Source of the DNA: Bacilli bacterium
Lineage (GTDB): Bacteria > Bacillota_I > Bacilli_A > ML615J-28 > CAG-698
DNA: 64,000 nt
Reading direction: 5' to 3'
Assembly: GCA_918272565.1 (NCBI GenBank)
Contig: CAKJYW010000003.1
Span: forward strand, 1 to 64,000
Shown here: positions 3,971 to 9,493 of the stretch, in pieces
Layout: the number at the start of each line of letters is the position of its first letter
How positions within the stretch are numbered: position 1 is the first letter of the stretch
Made by a program: the position numbers and the translations under genes
Notes under the pieces: generated by a model
Seen by the model: the letters and a program-made list of their open reading frames with translations, nothing else
The model's database searches: none
Told to the model about the DNA's origin: nothing

Positions 3971-4768
3971 TTATTTATTTAGAAGAAGTGAGTCGCTAGC
4001 TTCAACAGATGAATCCTCAAATAGTTTTAGTAAATCTTTGATAGTTAGGTTTTTCTTTTCTTCACCTGCTATATCTAAGATTACATGACCATGATCAAGC
4101 ATTATTAGTCTATTACCATATTTAATTGCATCATTCATATTATGTGTAATCATTAATGTAGTAATATTCTCTTTTGTTACTATCTCATTAGTTAGAGTTA
4201 ACACTGTTTTAGCTGTTTTAGGATCTAGGGCTGCTGTATGTTCATCAAGCAAAAGTAACTTTGGAGTAATGAGCGTTGCCATTAACAAAGTAACTGCTTG
4301 ACGTTGCCCACCTGATAATAAACCTACTTTTTGACTAAGTCTAGTTTCAAGTCCTAAATCTAGTCCTTTAAGTAGTTCGACATATTTTTCTTCATCTTCC
4401 TTAGTAAATCCCCAACGAAGGCCTCTCTTTTTGCCTCGTCTTTTAGCCAGTTCAAGATTTTCTAGAATTGACATATTTCCGCATGTGCCCATATGAGGAT
4501 CTTGGAATACTCTTCCTAGGAATTTTGCTCTTTCATATTCGGGCATATGTGTCATATCTACTCCATCAATTAATATCTCACCAGCATCTAGAGGAAATAC
4601 TCCACTTATTGAGTTCATCAAAGTTGATTTACCACTTCCGTTTCCTCCAATAACAGTGATGAAATCACCATCGTTAATTGTGATAGAAACATTATCTAAG
4701 GCAACTCTACGCTCATCAGCACTCAATTCCTTATTAAATATCTTTGTAACATTCTTAATTTCTAGCAT
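3971..4768 (-). CDS. ABC transporter ATP-binding protein (TrpZ-like)
   Basis: Cytoplasmic ATPase subunit (265 residues) of the importer made with the two genes upstream. It has Walker A GGNGSGKST near residue 42, a Q-loop in RVFQDPHMG, the signature LLSGGQRQAV, Walker B LLLLDEHTAALD and the switch histidine in MITHNM. Its start overlaps the end of the permease gene by 14 bases, so translation is coupled. This ATPase/permease/binding-protein set is the type annotated TrpXYZ in streptococci. The Tyr-rich leader upstream suggests that tyrosine, or aromatic amino acids more broadly, is the substrate here; that is inference. Confidence 0.88.
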   Translation of the reverse strand: MLEIKNVTKIFNKELSADERRVALDNVSITINDGDFITVIGGNGSGKSTLMNSISGVFPLDAGEILIDGVDMTHMPEYERAKFLGRVFQDPHMGTCGNMSILENLELAKRRGKKRGLRWGFTKEDEEKYVELLKGLDLGLETRLSQKVGLLSGGQRQAVTLLMATLITPKLLLLDEHTAALDPKTAKTVLTLTNEIVTKENITTLMITHNMNDAIKYGNRLIMLDHGHVILDIAGEEKKNLTIKDLLKLFEDSSVEASDSLLLNK

Positions 4769-5738
4769 TCTTTAATCCTCCTTTCTTTGAAAGACTAGCT
4801 TTCTTGATTAGAGGGACAGCAAGAATAATTACAATTAATATTGCAGAAACTAAATCTAAGAATTCAACAACATTTAGTTCAATTGCTACTTGTCTTAATA
4901 AATAGTAAATGATTGTTCCTGTTATAATACTAATTAATTGTAATTTATATGTCTTTCTGCCAAATATTGCTTCTCCAATTATGATTGCGGCTAAACCCAC
5001 AACAATCATTCCTCTTCCACTATCGACATTAGATGTTCCACCATTTTGACTAAATAGTGCCCCAGCTAGTGCAATTAGAGCGTTACTAATCATTAAACCT
5101 AATAAAATCATTTTATTAGTGTTAATACCTTCAGCTCTAGCCATTTTATCATTGTTACCTGTTGCTCTTATAGCCATACCAACTTCTGTACCAAAGAAGT
5201 AATACATAATAAGGAATACTATACCAAGCCACAAAGCACTAACAACTAAAGTAGAGATTGTTGTAGCGGCGCTATTATCTAGTCCTAATCCAATAATTAA
5301 TTCCCTAAACTTACCAAATAAACCATTCTTAAAACCAAAAGTCATTGATTTCATAGTTATTACATTCTTATCAGATAATCCAAGTAGAGCTAGATTTATT
5401 GAATATAAACCTGTCATCGTTATGATACCTGATAGAATCATTGGAATTTTAAGTTTTGTATGAAGTAAACCAGTAACAATTCCTCCTAAGGCACCAGCAA
5501 CGCATGCAATTAATGTTGCTAAGATTGCAGGAACATTATAATAAATCAAAATACCTGCAACACATGCACCCAAAGGAAATATACCTTCAATACTTAAATC
5601 AGCCGCATCTAATATACGATAAGAGATATGCACACCTAGTGTCATGATAGCCATTATTAGGCCAATCTTGACTCCAGTAAGTGCTAAGTCAGCAATATTA
5701 ACTGCTAAGAAAATATTGATTGACTCTAAGATTTGCAT
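4755..5738 (-). CDS. ABC transporter permease (TrpY-like)
   Basis: A 327-residue polytopic permease with about eight to nine transmembrane segments, of the branched-chain amino-acid/ribose permease type. Conserved features are ADLSIEGIFPLGA near residue 45 and AIRATGNNDKMARAEG in the cytoplasmic coupling loop. Its start abuts the stop of the substrate-binding protein gene (sharing 5738), and its 3' end overlaps the ATPase gene. It forms the membrane channel of the importer. Confidence 0.87.
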   Translation of the reverse strand: MQILESINIFLAVNIADLALTGVKIGLIMAIMTLGVHISYRILDAADLSIEGIFPLGACVAGILIYYNVPAILATLIACVAGALGGIVTGLLHTKLKIPMILSGIITMTGLYSINLALLGLSDKNVITMKSMTFGFKNGLFGKFRELIIGLGLDNSAATTISTLVVSALWLGIVFLIMYYFFGTEVGMAIRATGNNDKMARAEGINTNKMILLGLMISNALIALAGALFSQNGGTSNVDSGRGMIVVGLAAIIIGEAIFGRKTYKLQLISIITGTIIYYLLRQVAIELNVVEFLDLVSAILIVIILAVPLIKKASLSKKGGLKNARN

Positions 5739-6718
5739 TATTTCTTAGCCTTTGCCTTTACAGTTTCAGGAATTGCTAAATCAAATTCTTCTACAGTTTC
5801 GAAGTTAACTTTGTAATCAGTGCTTGTGAAGTATTGAACGCTCATCTTAGAGATATCGCCACCGTTAAGAACGTCAGCACCCATCTTACCAGTCATCTTA
5901 CCTAATTCTAAGTAATTAACACTACCAACAGTGATTGTTCCACCATCATTTACTTGTCCTTCTTCACCGCAGATTGTAATAACCTTAGCTTGATTACAAA
6001 GTGATGCAAGTAATGCCATTTGACTAGCTACATCATTATCTGTTGGAACGTATAATGCATCAATACCAGCACTAATTAAGCTTTTAACTACTTGTTCTAG
6101 GTCAGTTGAATTGGTACATGCCTTATCAACGATTTCAACACCGATTGATCTAGCTGCTTCTTTTGCCATATTAAGTTGAATAATAGAGTTATTTTCACCA
6201 GCAGTATAAACGAAACCTAACTTTGTAGCTGCAGGGTTGATTTCTTTTAATAACTTAACTTGATCAGCAACAGGGTTAATATCACTTGTTCCACTAATGC
6301 ATCCACCAGGAGTTTTAGCATCTTTAATGATGTTAGAAGCAACTGGGTCAGTTACAGCAGTAAATAATACAGGAACAGTTGATCCTTGTTTATCTAATTC
6401 ATTTACTAATGCTTGAGCAACAGGAGTTGCGATTGCGAAAATCAAATCGCTCTTCTTAACAGCAGTTTCACACATTTGAGCTAAAGTGTCAGCTTTTGCT
6501 TGAGGGTTGTAAACTGTGATTTCAACATTTTCCCCATCAACAAATCCTTGAGCTTTTAATCCTTCGATAATACCGTCTTTAGCATTATCTAGGGCTGTTG
6601 CACTAACGTATTGGATAATAGAAATAACTTTCTTTTCTTTCTTTCCACATCCACCAAATACAAATACACTTACTAAAACTAAGCATCCCACTAAAATTTT
6701 TCTAAATAGGTTTTTCAT
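5738..6718 (-). CDS. ABC transporter substrate-binding lipoprotein (TrpX-like)
   Basis: Secreted lipoprotein of 326 residues, in the ABC_sub_bind family that includes the streptococcal TrpX proteins. The signal peptide ends in the lipobox FGGC, giving lipid-modified Cys24. The mature protein has the family's two-lobe pattern (ISIIQYVSATALD at the start, then AIATPVAQAL and VLFTAVTDP). It has a strong ribosome-binding site (ggagg). It is the first structural gene after the attenuator at 6760-6840 and leads a three-gene operon. Substrate is inferred from the tyrosine codons of the leader peptide and from the neighbouring tyrS; it could also take tryptophan or phenylalanine. Confidence 0.87.
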   Translation of the reverse strand: MKNLFRKILVGCLVLVSVFVFGGCGKKEKKVISIIQYVSATALDNAKDGIIEGLKAQGFVDGENVEITVYNPQAKADTLAQMCETAVKKSDLIFAIATPVAQALVNELDKQGSTVPVLFTAVTDPVASNIIKDAKTPGGCISGTSDINPVADQVKLLKEINPAATKLGFVYTAGENNSIIQLNMAKEAARSIGVEIVDKACTNSTDLEQVVKSLISAGIDALYVPTDNDVASQMALLASLCNQAKVITICGEEGQVNDGGTITVGSVNYLELGKMTGKMGADVLNGGDISKMSVQYFTSTDYKVNFETVEEFDLAIPETVKAKAKK

Positions 6719-6759: not shown

Positions 6760-6838
6760 AAAAAGGGCTACCGCTTTAAGCAATAGCCCATATTCACTAG
6801 CTATTACTTAAAAACCCTATGGTGTGTAATAACTAGCG
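6760..6838 (-). promoter_or_regulatory. four-segment transcription attenuator of the ABC importer operon
   Basis: Read on the minus strand, four segments form mutually exclusive stems. Segment 1 (6838-6826) pairs with segment 2 (6807-6795) over 13 bp. Segment 2 (6811-6800) can instead pair with segment 3 (6787-6776) in a 12-bp antiterminator. Segment 3 (6789-6780) can pair with segment 4 (6774-6765) in a 10-bp terminator followed by five U. The terminator lies 42 bases before the first structural gene. This is the classical amino-acid attenuator layout. No T-box motif is present. Confidence 0.75.
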
Positions 6839-6886
6839 TTTATTATTAGTCTTTTCCAAGCAAAAAGGCCAAGATAATAATGTTAA

Positions 6887-6955
6887 TTAAAACACATTTT
6901 CCCTTGGATAATAAGCGTAGCTATAATATAAATAAGTTAAATTAATTACTAACAT
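6887..6955 (-). CDS. tyrosine-rich leader peptide of the ABC importer operon
   Basis: A 22-codon open frame whose product reads MLVINLTYLYYSYAYYPRENVF when split as MLVINLT-YLYYSYAYY-PRENVF. Six of the nine residues at positions 8-16 are tyrosine (five TAT, one TAC). A good ribosome-binding site (aaggaaaaggg) ends about eight bases before the ATG, and a promoter lies just upstream. The frame stops about 50 bases before the attenuator stems. Ribosome stalling at the tyrosine codons when charged tRNA-Tyr is low would be the sensing step. A+T-rich DNA favours TAT codons by chance, but promoter, ribosome-binding site, Tyr cluster and attenuator all line up. Confidence 0.72.
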   Translation of the reverse strand: MLVINLTYLYYSYAYYPRENVF

Positions 6956-6983
6956 ATATTATTCCCTTTTCCTTCTTACGTTT

Positions 6984-7013
6984 ATTATAACAAGGTTGTT
7001 TTTTATTAATCAA
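6984..7013 (-). promoter_or_regulatory. promoter of the Tyr leader peptide and ABC importer operon
   Basis: On the minus strand: -35 ttgatt (7013-7008), an 18-base spacer, and -10 tataat (6989-6984). Transcription would begin near 6977, about 20 bases before the leader-peptide ATG. Confidence 0.65.
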
Positions 7014-7025
7014 TAAAAATCTAAA

Positions 7026-7040
7026 TGTAAACGTTTTACA
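7026..7040. promoter_or_regulatory. possible LacI-family operator before the ABC importer promoter
   Basis: A perfect inverted repeat, tgtaaa-cgt-tttaca, 13 bases upstream of the -35 element. It resembles catabolite-response elements but has odd spacing. A LacI-type regulator is encoded two genes upstream (8501-9493). Confidence 0.4.
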
Positions 7041-7052
7041 CGTAACTTTTCT

Positions 7053-8276
7053 TTAGCACTCAACTAGATAATAATTCTTCTTACCACGACGAATTACAAT
7101 ATATTTACCTTCAATGGCGGCGTCAACACCAATCATTTCATGGATATCGTTATGAACTACACCATTGATTGTAACTCCTCCACCTTCAACAAACCTTCTA
7201 GCTTCACTCTTACTTGTAGCTGCACCAACCAAAACAAGCAAATCAACTAAATTAGTTTCGCCTTCTAGTTTAGTCTTTTCAAAATCACTAAATGCTTGTT
7301 CAATCTCTTTAGCATTAAGCTCATTTACTTTTCCACTAAACAATGCTTCACTAATTTTAACAGCTTCAAGATAAGCATCTTCTCCGTGAAGGAATTTAAT
7401 AACTTCATGAGCCAAAGCCTTATGAGCTTCTCTTAAGTGAGGTTGTTCTAGATTCTTCTTTTCTAATTCTTCAATTTCTTCTTTAGATAAGAATGTTAAG
7501 AACTTCAAATAATCGATTACTTTAGTATCTTCAGTGTTAATGAAGAATTGATACATCTCATATGGAGATGTCTTTTCACTATCTAACCAAATAGCTTTTC
7601 CATTAGTCTTACCAAACTTTGTTCCATCGCTCTTTGTAAGTAGTGGCATAGTAAATGCATAAGCTTCTTTTCCACTCTTTTTTCTAATTAGTTCAATACC
7701 AGCAGTAATATTACCCCATTGGTCTTGACCGGCAACTTGCAAAGTGACATTCTTATTCTCATTTAGCCACCAGAAGTCCATAGCTTGCATAATCATATAA
7801 CTGAATTCAGTATATGTAATACCTTGATCAAGTCTACGAGCAACGATGTCTTTGCTTAACATATAGTTAATATTAAAGAACTTTCCAAAATCACGTAAGA
7901 AATCAATGAAATTTAAATCCTTGCTCCAGTCATAATTATTAACTACTTCGCATCCAAACAAATTAGTTAATTGTTCTTTTAAACATTTAAAGTTATGTTC
8001 AACAGTTTCATACTTAACCATTGGACGTTCACTATCTGGTTTAGGATCTCCGATTAAACCTGTTGCTCCACCAACCAAAACGATTGGATTATGACCTGCA
8101 TCCTTTAATCTCTTACAAATTAAGAAACTTGAGAAGTGACCAATGTGAAGTGAATCACCAGTCGGGTCAGTTCCAATATAGAAAGTCATTCCACCTTTAT
8201 TTAACTTTTCTCGTAATACAGGATCAGATACATCTTTAATTAATCCTCTCCACTCTAATTCTTCATAAATACCCAT
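7053..8276 (-). CDS. tyrS: tyrosyl-tRNA synthetase
   Basis: Class I synthetase that charges tRNA-Tyr, 407 residues. HIGH is exact at residues 44-47, after the family segment TFYIGTDPTGDSL. The KMSKS equivalent is KFGKT near residue 231. The C-terminus carries an S4-like RNA-binding domain with SEARRFVEGGGVTING. The Tyr T-box leader lies directly upstream. Its 3' neighbour on the same strand is the tyrosine-leader ABC importer, so charging and supply of tyrosine are encoded side by side, under different sensing mechanisms. Confidence 0.97.
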   Translation of the reverse strand: MGIYEELEWRGLIKDVSDPVLREKLNKGGMTFYIGTDPTGDSLHIGHFSSFLICKRLKDAGHNPIVLVGGATGLIGDPKPDSERPMVKYETVEHNFKCLKEQLTNLFGCEVVNNYDWSKDLNFIDFLRDFGKFFNINYMLSKDIVARRLDQGITYTEFSYMIMQAMDFWWLNENKNVTLQVAGQDQWGNITAGIELIRKKSGKEAYAFTMPLLTKSDGTKFGKTNGKAIWLDSEKTSPYEMYQFFINTEDTKVIDYLKFLTFLSKEEIEELEKKNLEQPHLREAHKALAHEVIKFLHGEDAYLEAVKISEALFSGKVNELNAKEIEQAFSDFEKTKLEGETNLVDLLVLVGAATSKSEARRFVEGGGVTINGVVHNDIHEMIGVDAAIEGKYIVIRRGKKNYYLVEC

Positions 8277-8302: not shown

Positions 8303-8499
8303 AAAAAAGTCCTTAGATATAAATCTAAGGACGAAAATTTTATTTCGCGGTACCACCTTAGTTAAAACAAAGCAATGTTTGTTTTCACTTCATTAGTAAA
8401 CAGCTCCTAAGTGTAATTCTAAAATATCATTGCTTTAGTTTCACCAACCCTAAAGTCTCTTTCATTCAATTAATATTTTATACTTCTTCTTATTCAACG
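8303..8499 (-). promoter_or_regulatory. T-box leader upstream of tyrS
   Basis: On the minus strand the T-box core aaggtggtaccgcga is at 8359-8345. It is followed by a terminator with a 10-bp stem (8332-8323 with 8318-8309) and six U. A TAC at 8415-8413 in the 3' part of Stem I is the probable tyrosine specifier. The leader begins right after the stop codon of the LacI-type gene. Confidence 0.9.
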
Positions 8500-8500
8500 C

Positions 8501-9493
8501 CTATTTAGTTGATTCTCTCCAACAAATGTCATAAGCAAGTAATATCTTATTTGCTTTTCTATGATTAGCATTTTCATCTTTCATTAATTCTGTTAAATAA
8601 CTCATAGCTTTATTACCCATTTCATAAATAGGAATTTCAGCACAAGTTAGTTTAGGATTAGAAAGTAATGCATATCTTGTGTTTTGGAATCCAATTACTT
8701 GTAACATGTCAGGAACTTTAATTCCTTTTTTATTTGCTACATTCATAAGTGAAATTGCCATAGAGTCACGAACAACTAAAGCAACTTCTGGTTTGTTATT
8801 ATCTAAATAATTAGAGAAGAACACTTCATTTTTGTCAATGTTGCCACTTGAGTAGATAACTTCAGCCTCAAGTCCAGCTTCAGCCATTGCTCGTTTATAT
8901 CCACGTTCTTTCATTTCATTTAGTGTATATTTATGTTCTGTTCCAACAAACACGATTTTCTTATTTCCACGACTAATCATTTCTTTTGTGATTGAATATG
9001 AACAATCTTCATAATCTACACATACACTACCAATAGTGTCTTTTTGACTTAATGAGTTAACAAACACAACAGGAACTGGAGTGTATTCAACTTGACGATA
9101 AGTCTCTTTAGTCATTTCATCATTCATAAATAAAATCCCATCTACGCTTGATGCAATTACTTCTCCCCACAAATCTTCTTGAAGAAGTTGATTCTTATTT
9201 ATAAATAATCTAATAGTATATCCATATTTTTTTGCGGCATCGTCGATTCCTTGAATCATTTCGGCAACACTGGCACGTGAAAGTTCAGGAATAACAACAG
9301 CAACGGTTGTAGATTTACGACTTGCAAGACCACGTGCATTAGCGTTAGGTTTATAGCCTTTATCTTTGATTATCTTTAAAACTCTATTTCTTGTAGCTTC
9401 TTTTACTTTCTCAGGATGATTAAGTACTCTAGAAACTGTAGCTAGGCTAACACCAGCTGCTCCAGCAATATCATATATCTTAGTTTGATTCAT
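8501..9493 (-). CDS. LacI-family transcriptional regulator, CcpA-like
   Basis: A 330-residue regulator with an N-terminal LacI helix-turn-helix (IYDIAGAAGVSLATVSRVLN), the hinge helix ANARGLASRKS and a periplasmic-binding-protein-like sensor domain. It resembles CcpA in the tail (CWRESTK against FRQSTK) and in the AxARGLASxK hinge, so it could be the catabolite regulator. It lies upstream of T-box tyrS on the same strand, with no clear terminator between them. The HPr-Ser-P contact residues cannot be judged with certainty, so I give no symbol. Palindromes at 7026 and 3918 could be its sites. Confidence 0.85.
   Translation of the reverse strand: MNQTKIYDIAGAAGVSLATVSRVLNHPEKVKEATRNRVLKIIKDKGYKPNANARGLASRKSTTVAVVIPELSRASVAEMIQGIDDAAKKYGYTIRLFINKNQLLQEDLWGEVIASSVDGILFMNDEMTKETYRQVEYTPVPVVFVNSLSQKDTIGSVCVDYEDCSYSITKEMISRGNKKIVFVGTEHKYTLNEMKERGYKRAMAEAGLEAEVIYSSGNIDKNEVFFSNYLDNNKPEVALVVRDSMAISLMNVANKKGIKVPDMLQVIGFQNTRYALLSNPKLTCAEIPIYEMGNKAMSYLTELMKDENANHRKANKILLAYDICWRESTK

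Follow-up and report, generated by a model that had tools for sequence, protein, structure and literature searches.

Most descriptions of leader-peptide attenuation concern proteobacteria, with classical attenuators of the trp, his, leu, phe, and ilv type, and low-GC Gram-positive bacteria and their relatives are expected to sense tRNA charging through T-boxes instead. Precedents do exist in Bacillota: a review (PMC6123439, with reference PMC5794164) cites experimental evidence for ilv-leu leader-peptide attenuation in Staphylococcus aureus and Listeria monocytogenes, and His leaders have been predicted in Bacillus (PMC2965389). Farther afield, Cys-rich leader peptides precede cys operons in Actinobacteria (PMC1262725). 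Here we analyze a leader region on the minus strand (7013-6760) between tyrS and an ABC importer operon in the window, a 64,000-nucleotide stretch of DNA from a member of the Bacilli. An earlier note, made by reading the sequence alone, had described this region as a classical four-segment attenuator with a Tyr-rich leader peptide, unusual for Bacillota. We rate the leader as working like a ribosome-mediated attenuator, yet not one of the classical four-segment form, and as less exceptional in Bacillota than the earlier note implied, since the ilv-leu and His leaders precede it. The region is very probably a transcription attenuator in which a ribosome senses charged tRNA-Tyr to control a tyrosine ABC importer; the stalling, direction, kinetics, and in vivo termination are what we infer.

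The promoter-like element, Shine-Dalgarno-like sequence, 22-codon Tyr frame, alternating segments, and five-U terminator that the earlier note had listed are all present on the minus strand where it had put them. The features of the locus are as follows.

7027..7039, minus strand: palindrome GTAAAACGTTTAC resembling a LacI/CcpA-type operator, 5' of the promoter (from sequence)
6984..7013, minus strand: promoter-like TTGATT-18-TATAAT with a TG extension (consensus only)
6962..6971, minus strand: Shine-Dalgarno-like GAAAAGGGAA of the leader peptide
6887..6955, minus strand: leader peptide open reading frame (ORF) MLVINLTYLYYSYAYYPRENVF, then a stop codon, with 6 Tyr in 9 codons and the Tyr run ending beside segment A
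6903..6907, minus strand: segment A, CCAAG, pairing with A' (from alignment)
6874..6902, minus strand: segment B, comprising the last leader codons, the stop codon, and sequence downstream; pairs with C
6869..6873, minus strand: segment A', CTTGG (invariant in alignments A1-A3)
6849..6869, minus strand: hairpin H, whose 3' arm has an alternative partner in the last part of the Tyr run
6821..6837, minus strand: segment C (segment 1 of the earlier note), GCTAGTTATTACACACC, pairing with B or D
6797..6807, minus strand: segment D (its segment 2), GTAATAGCTAG, pairing with C or E
6780..6789, minus strand: segment E (its segment 3), GGGCTATTGC, antiterminator with D and terminator with F
6760..6774, minus strand: segment F, GCGGTAGCCC (F arm 6774-6765), and U tract; intrinsic terminator with E
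7053..8276, minus strand: tyrS (context)
8324..8506, minus strand: T-box of tyrS, RF00230 (context, outside the attenuator)
5738..6718, minus strand: substrate-binding lipoprotein (SBP), ABC_sub_bind PF04392, TrpX/CD0873 family, with tyrosine-type binding residues
4755..5738, minus strand: ABC permease, BPD_transp_2 PF02653 (domain match)
3971..4768, minus strand: ABC ATPase, PF00005 (domain match)

C:D, D:E, and E:F are three mutually exclusive helices, with five U after E:F. The resulting intrinsic terminator stands before the first gene, as in an attenuator, and shuffled sequence would yield 0.2 such terminators where the leader has 1. Promoter-like elements alone are not above chance (2 found versus 2.5 expected in shuffles). 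In many relatives a site similar to the CcpA-like palindrome at 7027-7039 occurs around -80 to -90 relative to the start of the leader (mean best score 10.1 of 14, versus 8.7 in shuffles). In the window, the gene immediately upstream of tyrS (8501-9493) was recognized by eye as that of a LacI-type regulator. Both neighbors reported in the earlier note were recovered: the SBP, permease, and ATPase of an ABC importer lie downstream, and the adjacent tyrS (TIGR00234 above cut-off) has an RF00230 T-box just upstream with the specifier UAC, read by eye. The window also contains a T-box before trpS (1267-1503; specifier UGG) and an ORF that by eye resembles an IS200/IS605-type transposase (118-582).

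We searched for SBP homologues in 100 related genomes and read the DNA upstream of each in gene orientation, which revealed, in the equivalent position, a short ORF containing a run of Tyr codons. In the alignment built first, of 21 leaders, CTTGG is invariant, and blocks resembling GTTATTAC and GTAATAAC, along with the terminator, are strongly conserved. With R1, a covariance model built on the OFF fold, we found the leader in 24 of the 43 genomes of the order and in 27 of the 395 of a class sample that includes those of the order. Counting a tandem second copy in one genome (G011), the total is 28 leaders in 16 genera of Bacilli: 25 precede the importer operon, two precede aroB-aroC, and one precedes cysK. 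The window leader is thus confirmed to be beyond chance, with 27 other homologous leaders in its relatives. Genomes of the order that lack the leader mostly lack the SBP homologue too, the exceptions being G015, where a T-box stands before the SBP, G007, and G020. In the latter two, the SBP leaders (L020 and L019, respectively) keep segments resembling C, D, E, and F with no Tyr ORF, and both genomes carry a Tyr leader before aroB. Four further SBP genes without the Tyr leader (L021, L025, L029, and L030) have AGAATGGTAG-like repeats and a terminator upstream. A codon-agnostic model, R2, found no further convincing copies; the weak R2 matches that we inspected fell within coding sequences, at their ends, or at plain terminators, except for the altered SBP leader of G020. 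Among the matches listed by a DNA pattern scan of genome contigs, most were chance hits.

We considered whether the leader belongs to the Rfam trpB motif or is an unrecognized variant of the T-box. Paralogous SBP genes do use T-boxes, as judged by eye: at L031 (G015), L035 (G024), and L036 (G000:C31), a T-box and then a second short ORF precede the gene. The trpB motif, for its part, often stands before ABC transporters (PMC11109978). Neither the RF00230 nor the RF04312 covariance model matches the leader, however, and the leader has no Rfam match at the gathering threshold or at E-values up to 1 in a search that detected both T-boxes of the window; nor could we see any T-box sequence in it. 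We regard this identity as hardly credible, and attenuation by a translating ribosome remains the preferred reading. In the genomes of the order, RF04312 itself gave only sub-cut-off matches. Some of these fall at short Tyr/Phe-rich ORFs before SBP or carrier genes: L184 (G049; MKNINITSSNRSYFFSYFR), L185 (G086; MNSTLTNLYDYSYYC), L186 (G064; MNSNLTTRFYYSYYC), and L027 (G069; ...NNFYFSYFRCCL). Because the weak matches sit at such ORFs, they hint that the trpB motif, regarded as a candidate riboswitch, could itself act by leader-peptide attenuation. The aromatic leader L027, upstream of an SBP gene, is also a near-threshold match to the Rfam family Enterococcus sRNA_2410 (59.3 versus 61 bits).

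An ATG is present in each of the 28 leaders, preceded in most by a clear Shine-Dalgarno sequence, so that the ORF appears translatable. Their Tyr-rich stretch mostly ends in YYYY(F)PR and is followed by a fixed chain of alternating segments ending in the terminator. Across 25 non-redundant leaders, the ten codons before CCAAG contain a mean of 4.96 Tyr in frame, versus 0.28 and 0.12 in the other frames. Both Tyr codons are used (TAT 71 times and TAC 35 times in the 22 non-redundant leaders with CCAAG in frame). In four leaders (L022, L026, L028, and L062) CCAAG lies in another reading frame and the Tyr codons are kept, which argues that the codons and the RNA element are separate constraints and that Tyr is not a by-product of the latter. 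The amino acid encoded by the run thus corresponds to the genes under control, and the run is conserved by codon. A Cys version, MININKSFNFYCAYCICFPRKLVS, with three Cys codons, precedes cysK (TIGR01139 above cut-off) in G015 and is a single case.

The genes downstream point to tyrosine as well. The solved chain closest to the window SBP is 6HNI, which is Clostridioides difficile CD0873 with bound tyrosine (PMC6816091). Selectivity in CD0873 involves Glu-263, which contacts the tyrosine hydroxyl, and Tyr-279; Glu-263 is replaced by Ala in Phe- and Trp-binding relatives, and Tyr-279 by Gln in the Trp-binding one (PMC6816091). Glu and Tyr occupy the equivalent positions in all 25 leader-bearing SBPs, a pattern consistent with, although not proof of, tyrosine import. 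These tyrosine-type residues are not exclusive to the leader, because six SBPs without it (L020, L021, L023, L025, L029, and L030) share Glu and Tyr, as does the T-box paralogue L036; in the T-box paralogues the first selectivity site is V, V, and E. In G007 the genes that follow the leader are aroB, aroC, an aroE/aroK fusion, a DAHP synthase gene, aroA, and a prephenate dehydrogenase gene (tyrA). There, aroB, aroC, aroA, and DAHP synthase are above the NCBIfam cut-offs, and the fusion and prephenate dehydrogenase are below them with strong E-values. In G020 the leader precedes confirmed aroB and aroC genes, after which the contig breaks off within an aroE-like frame.

We next compared the RNA pairings across species with an alignment-free test, which sets the energy of each segment's duplex with its native partner against its energies with the partners of other leaders (21 non-redundant leaders; 10,000 permutations). 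Segment swaps gave z-scores of -9.1 for B:C, -8.4 for C:D, -4.9 for D:E, and -7.3 for E:F, each with 0/10,000 permutations reaching the observed value. The control pairs B:H, B:D, B:E, B:post, T:F, and T:mid showed no co-evolution in the same test (z -0.3 to +1.5). B:mid and E:post are not flat, and both contain part of a true partner; modest values were also obtained for some pairs intended as controls, namely T:H (-3.8) and Tup:Ddn and H:D (-2.4). On alignment A3, two-sided changes occur in 6 of the 10 C:D pairs and 6 of the 9 E:F pairs, with a covariation score reached by 0/500 shuffles. The D:E and C:D results together support a mutually exclusive antiterminator across species. Columns of the A:A' helix are 77% paired on A3, where A is partly misaligned, and support for this helix is less secure, in part for that reason.

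B:C was not among the pairings in the earlier note, which had suggested a relay between the ribosome and segment 1 (C). That relay is supported in part. The conserved partner of C lies at the 3' end of the leader gene (B, 6902-6874), with which a duplex of -10 kcal/mol or better is possible in all 24 leaders printed; it is not the taataataa at 6848-6839, since the sequence just 5' of segment 1, where this element sits, shows no co-evolution with it (Cup:C z +0.6). The classical four-segment form is likewise set aside: segment 1 starts about 50 nucleotides beyond the stop codon, with the added B:C as the link to it. For the proposed pairing between the H region and the last Tyr codons, relatives give moderate support: in a follow-up to T:H, the 3' arm of H against the Tyr-run end gave z -2.5 (70/10,000 permutations), and the arms of hairpin H gave z -4.1. 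The central claim of the earlier note, that attenuation senses Tyr codons, has strong support: the Tyr codons and the alternative stems, whose lack of conservation that note had named as a refutation, are both conserved in relatives.

These pairings also bear on a second alternative, in which a riboswitch-like RNA or protein-binding leader senses tyrosine directly and the Tyr run is incidental, its UUAUUAC pairing with GUAAUAA elements. A UUAUUAC-like sequence does recur in C and E, and in the first set of leaders the Tyr run seemed able to pair with D (T:D z -5.2). With a shorter T in a larger set, though, T:D fell to z -1.7, and we dropped that pairing. The coding evidence also weighs against direct sensing: in-frame Tyr codons and an ATG occur in every leader and a Shine-Dalgarno sequence in most, while out-of-frame starts with a Shine-Dalgarno sequence occur in one leader only; the Tyr codons stay when the frame relative to CCAAG changes; and Cys codons replace them before cysK. 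We therefore consider direct sensing very unlikely, and read the Tyr run as the sensor of a ribosome-mediated attenuator.

In the attenuator that we propose, a ribosome would translate the Tyr-rich peptide as RNA polymerase makes the leader. With Tyr-tRNA in short supply, the ribosome would stall in the Tyr run just before CCAAG, covering A and leaving B free. Free B would pair with C once C is made, leaving D to form D:E, so that the E:F terminator would not form and the importer, or in two species the operon for aromatic amino acid biosynthesis, would be transcribed (ON). With Tyr-tRNA plentiful, the ribosome would reach the stop codon inside B and cover B; C:D and then E:F would form, and transcription would end at the U tract (OFF). 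B:C would thus be one segment added before the usual alternation.

We modeled this switch with an assumed ribosome footprint of -18 to +12 relative to the A-site codon. A ribosome at the last Tyr codon masks on average 7% of B and covers most of A, and a ribosome at the stop codon masks 88% of B. When the transcript was folded before D is made, a test picked after equilibrium folding had given a mixed result, the mean number of B:C pairs was 13.1 with the ribosome stalled versus 0.4 with it at the stop codon, and was higher in the stalled state in 22 of 23 leaders. For the window leader the corresponding values were 10.1 and 0.0. In the mixed equilibrium folding, with D and E present, mean D:E was 0.53 at the last Tyr codon and 0.18 at the stop codon. 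The window leader at equilibrium stays in C:D whatever the ribosome position, with no switch, and its switch would for that reason have to be kinetic.

Folding with no ribosome gave B:C in many leaders (mean 11.4 pairs), so an untranslated leader may be ON rather than OFF. This prediction is what might be expected if the same architecture had another input, namely translation in general or the absence of a ribosome (transcription-translation coupling), rather than Tyr specifically. Codon identity, however, tracks the genes, with Tyr codons before tyrosine-type importers and before aro and tyrA genes and Cys codons before cysK. A general translation input is accordingly improbable, if somewhat less so than direct sensing, and we favor a ribosome that reads charged tRNA-Tyr.

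The Tyr leader resembles the classical proteobacterial attenuators in having a leader ORF with codons for the regulated amino acid, alternating hairpins, an intrinsic terminator, and a stop codon positioned to let the ribosome cover a switching segment. It differs from them in that B:C is added before C:D, D:E, and E:F, in that the terminating ribosome would mask B, and in being Tyr specific. To our knowledge there is no sequence relation between the two. With the ilv-leu and His leaders of Bacillota it shares the replacement of a T-box by leader-peptide attenuation in low-GC Gram-positive bacteria, but its amino acid, genes, and RNA architecture are different, and it occurs in Acholeplasmatales-related Bacilli, in the 16 genera counted above. 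T-boxes (RF00230; those of tyrS and trpS here and of trpX in Streptococcus suis, PMC9382623) respond to charging of the same amino acid's tRNA or precede a related SBP gene; a T-box, however, reads the tRNA directly, without translation, and the Tyr leader does not match its model. The trpB motif (RF04312, PMC11109978) is likewise a terminator-linked RNA before amino-acid ABC transporters, and its weak matches also have Tyr/Phe-rich short ORFs. Actinobacterial Cys leaders (PMC1262725) similarly place Cys codons before cysteine genes, but they lack conserved terminator hairpins, whereas the Cys version found here shares the RNA architecture of the Tyr leader.

In a search of open papers, we found no description of the Tyr leader and none that joins tyrosine codons with a leader peptide. 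A single genome reads tRNA-Tyr in two ways: at tyrS by a T-box and, at the adjacent tyrosine importer, apparently by a ribosome. From the Cys version it seems that a change of codons re-targets such sensors while the RNA stays. Taken together, the leaders probably represent an undescribed, re-targetable class of attenuator in Acholeplasmatales-related Bacilli, with a shared RNA chassis and relay segment and with specificity set only by the codon run; if this is true, a codon swap alone would change specificity.
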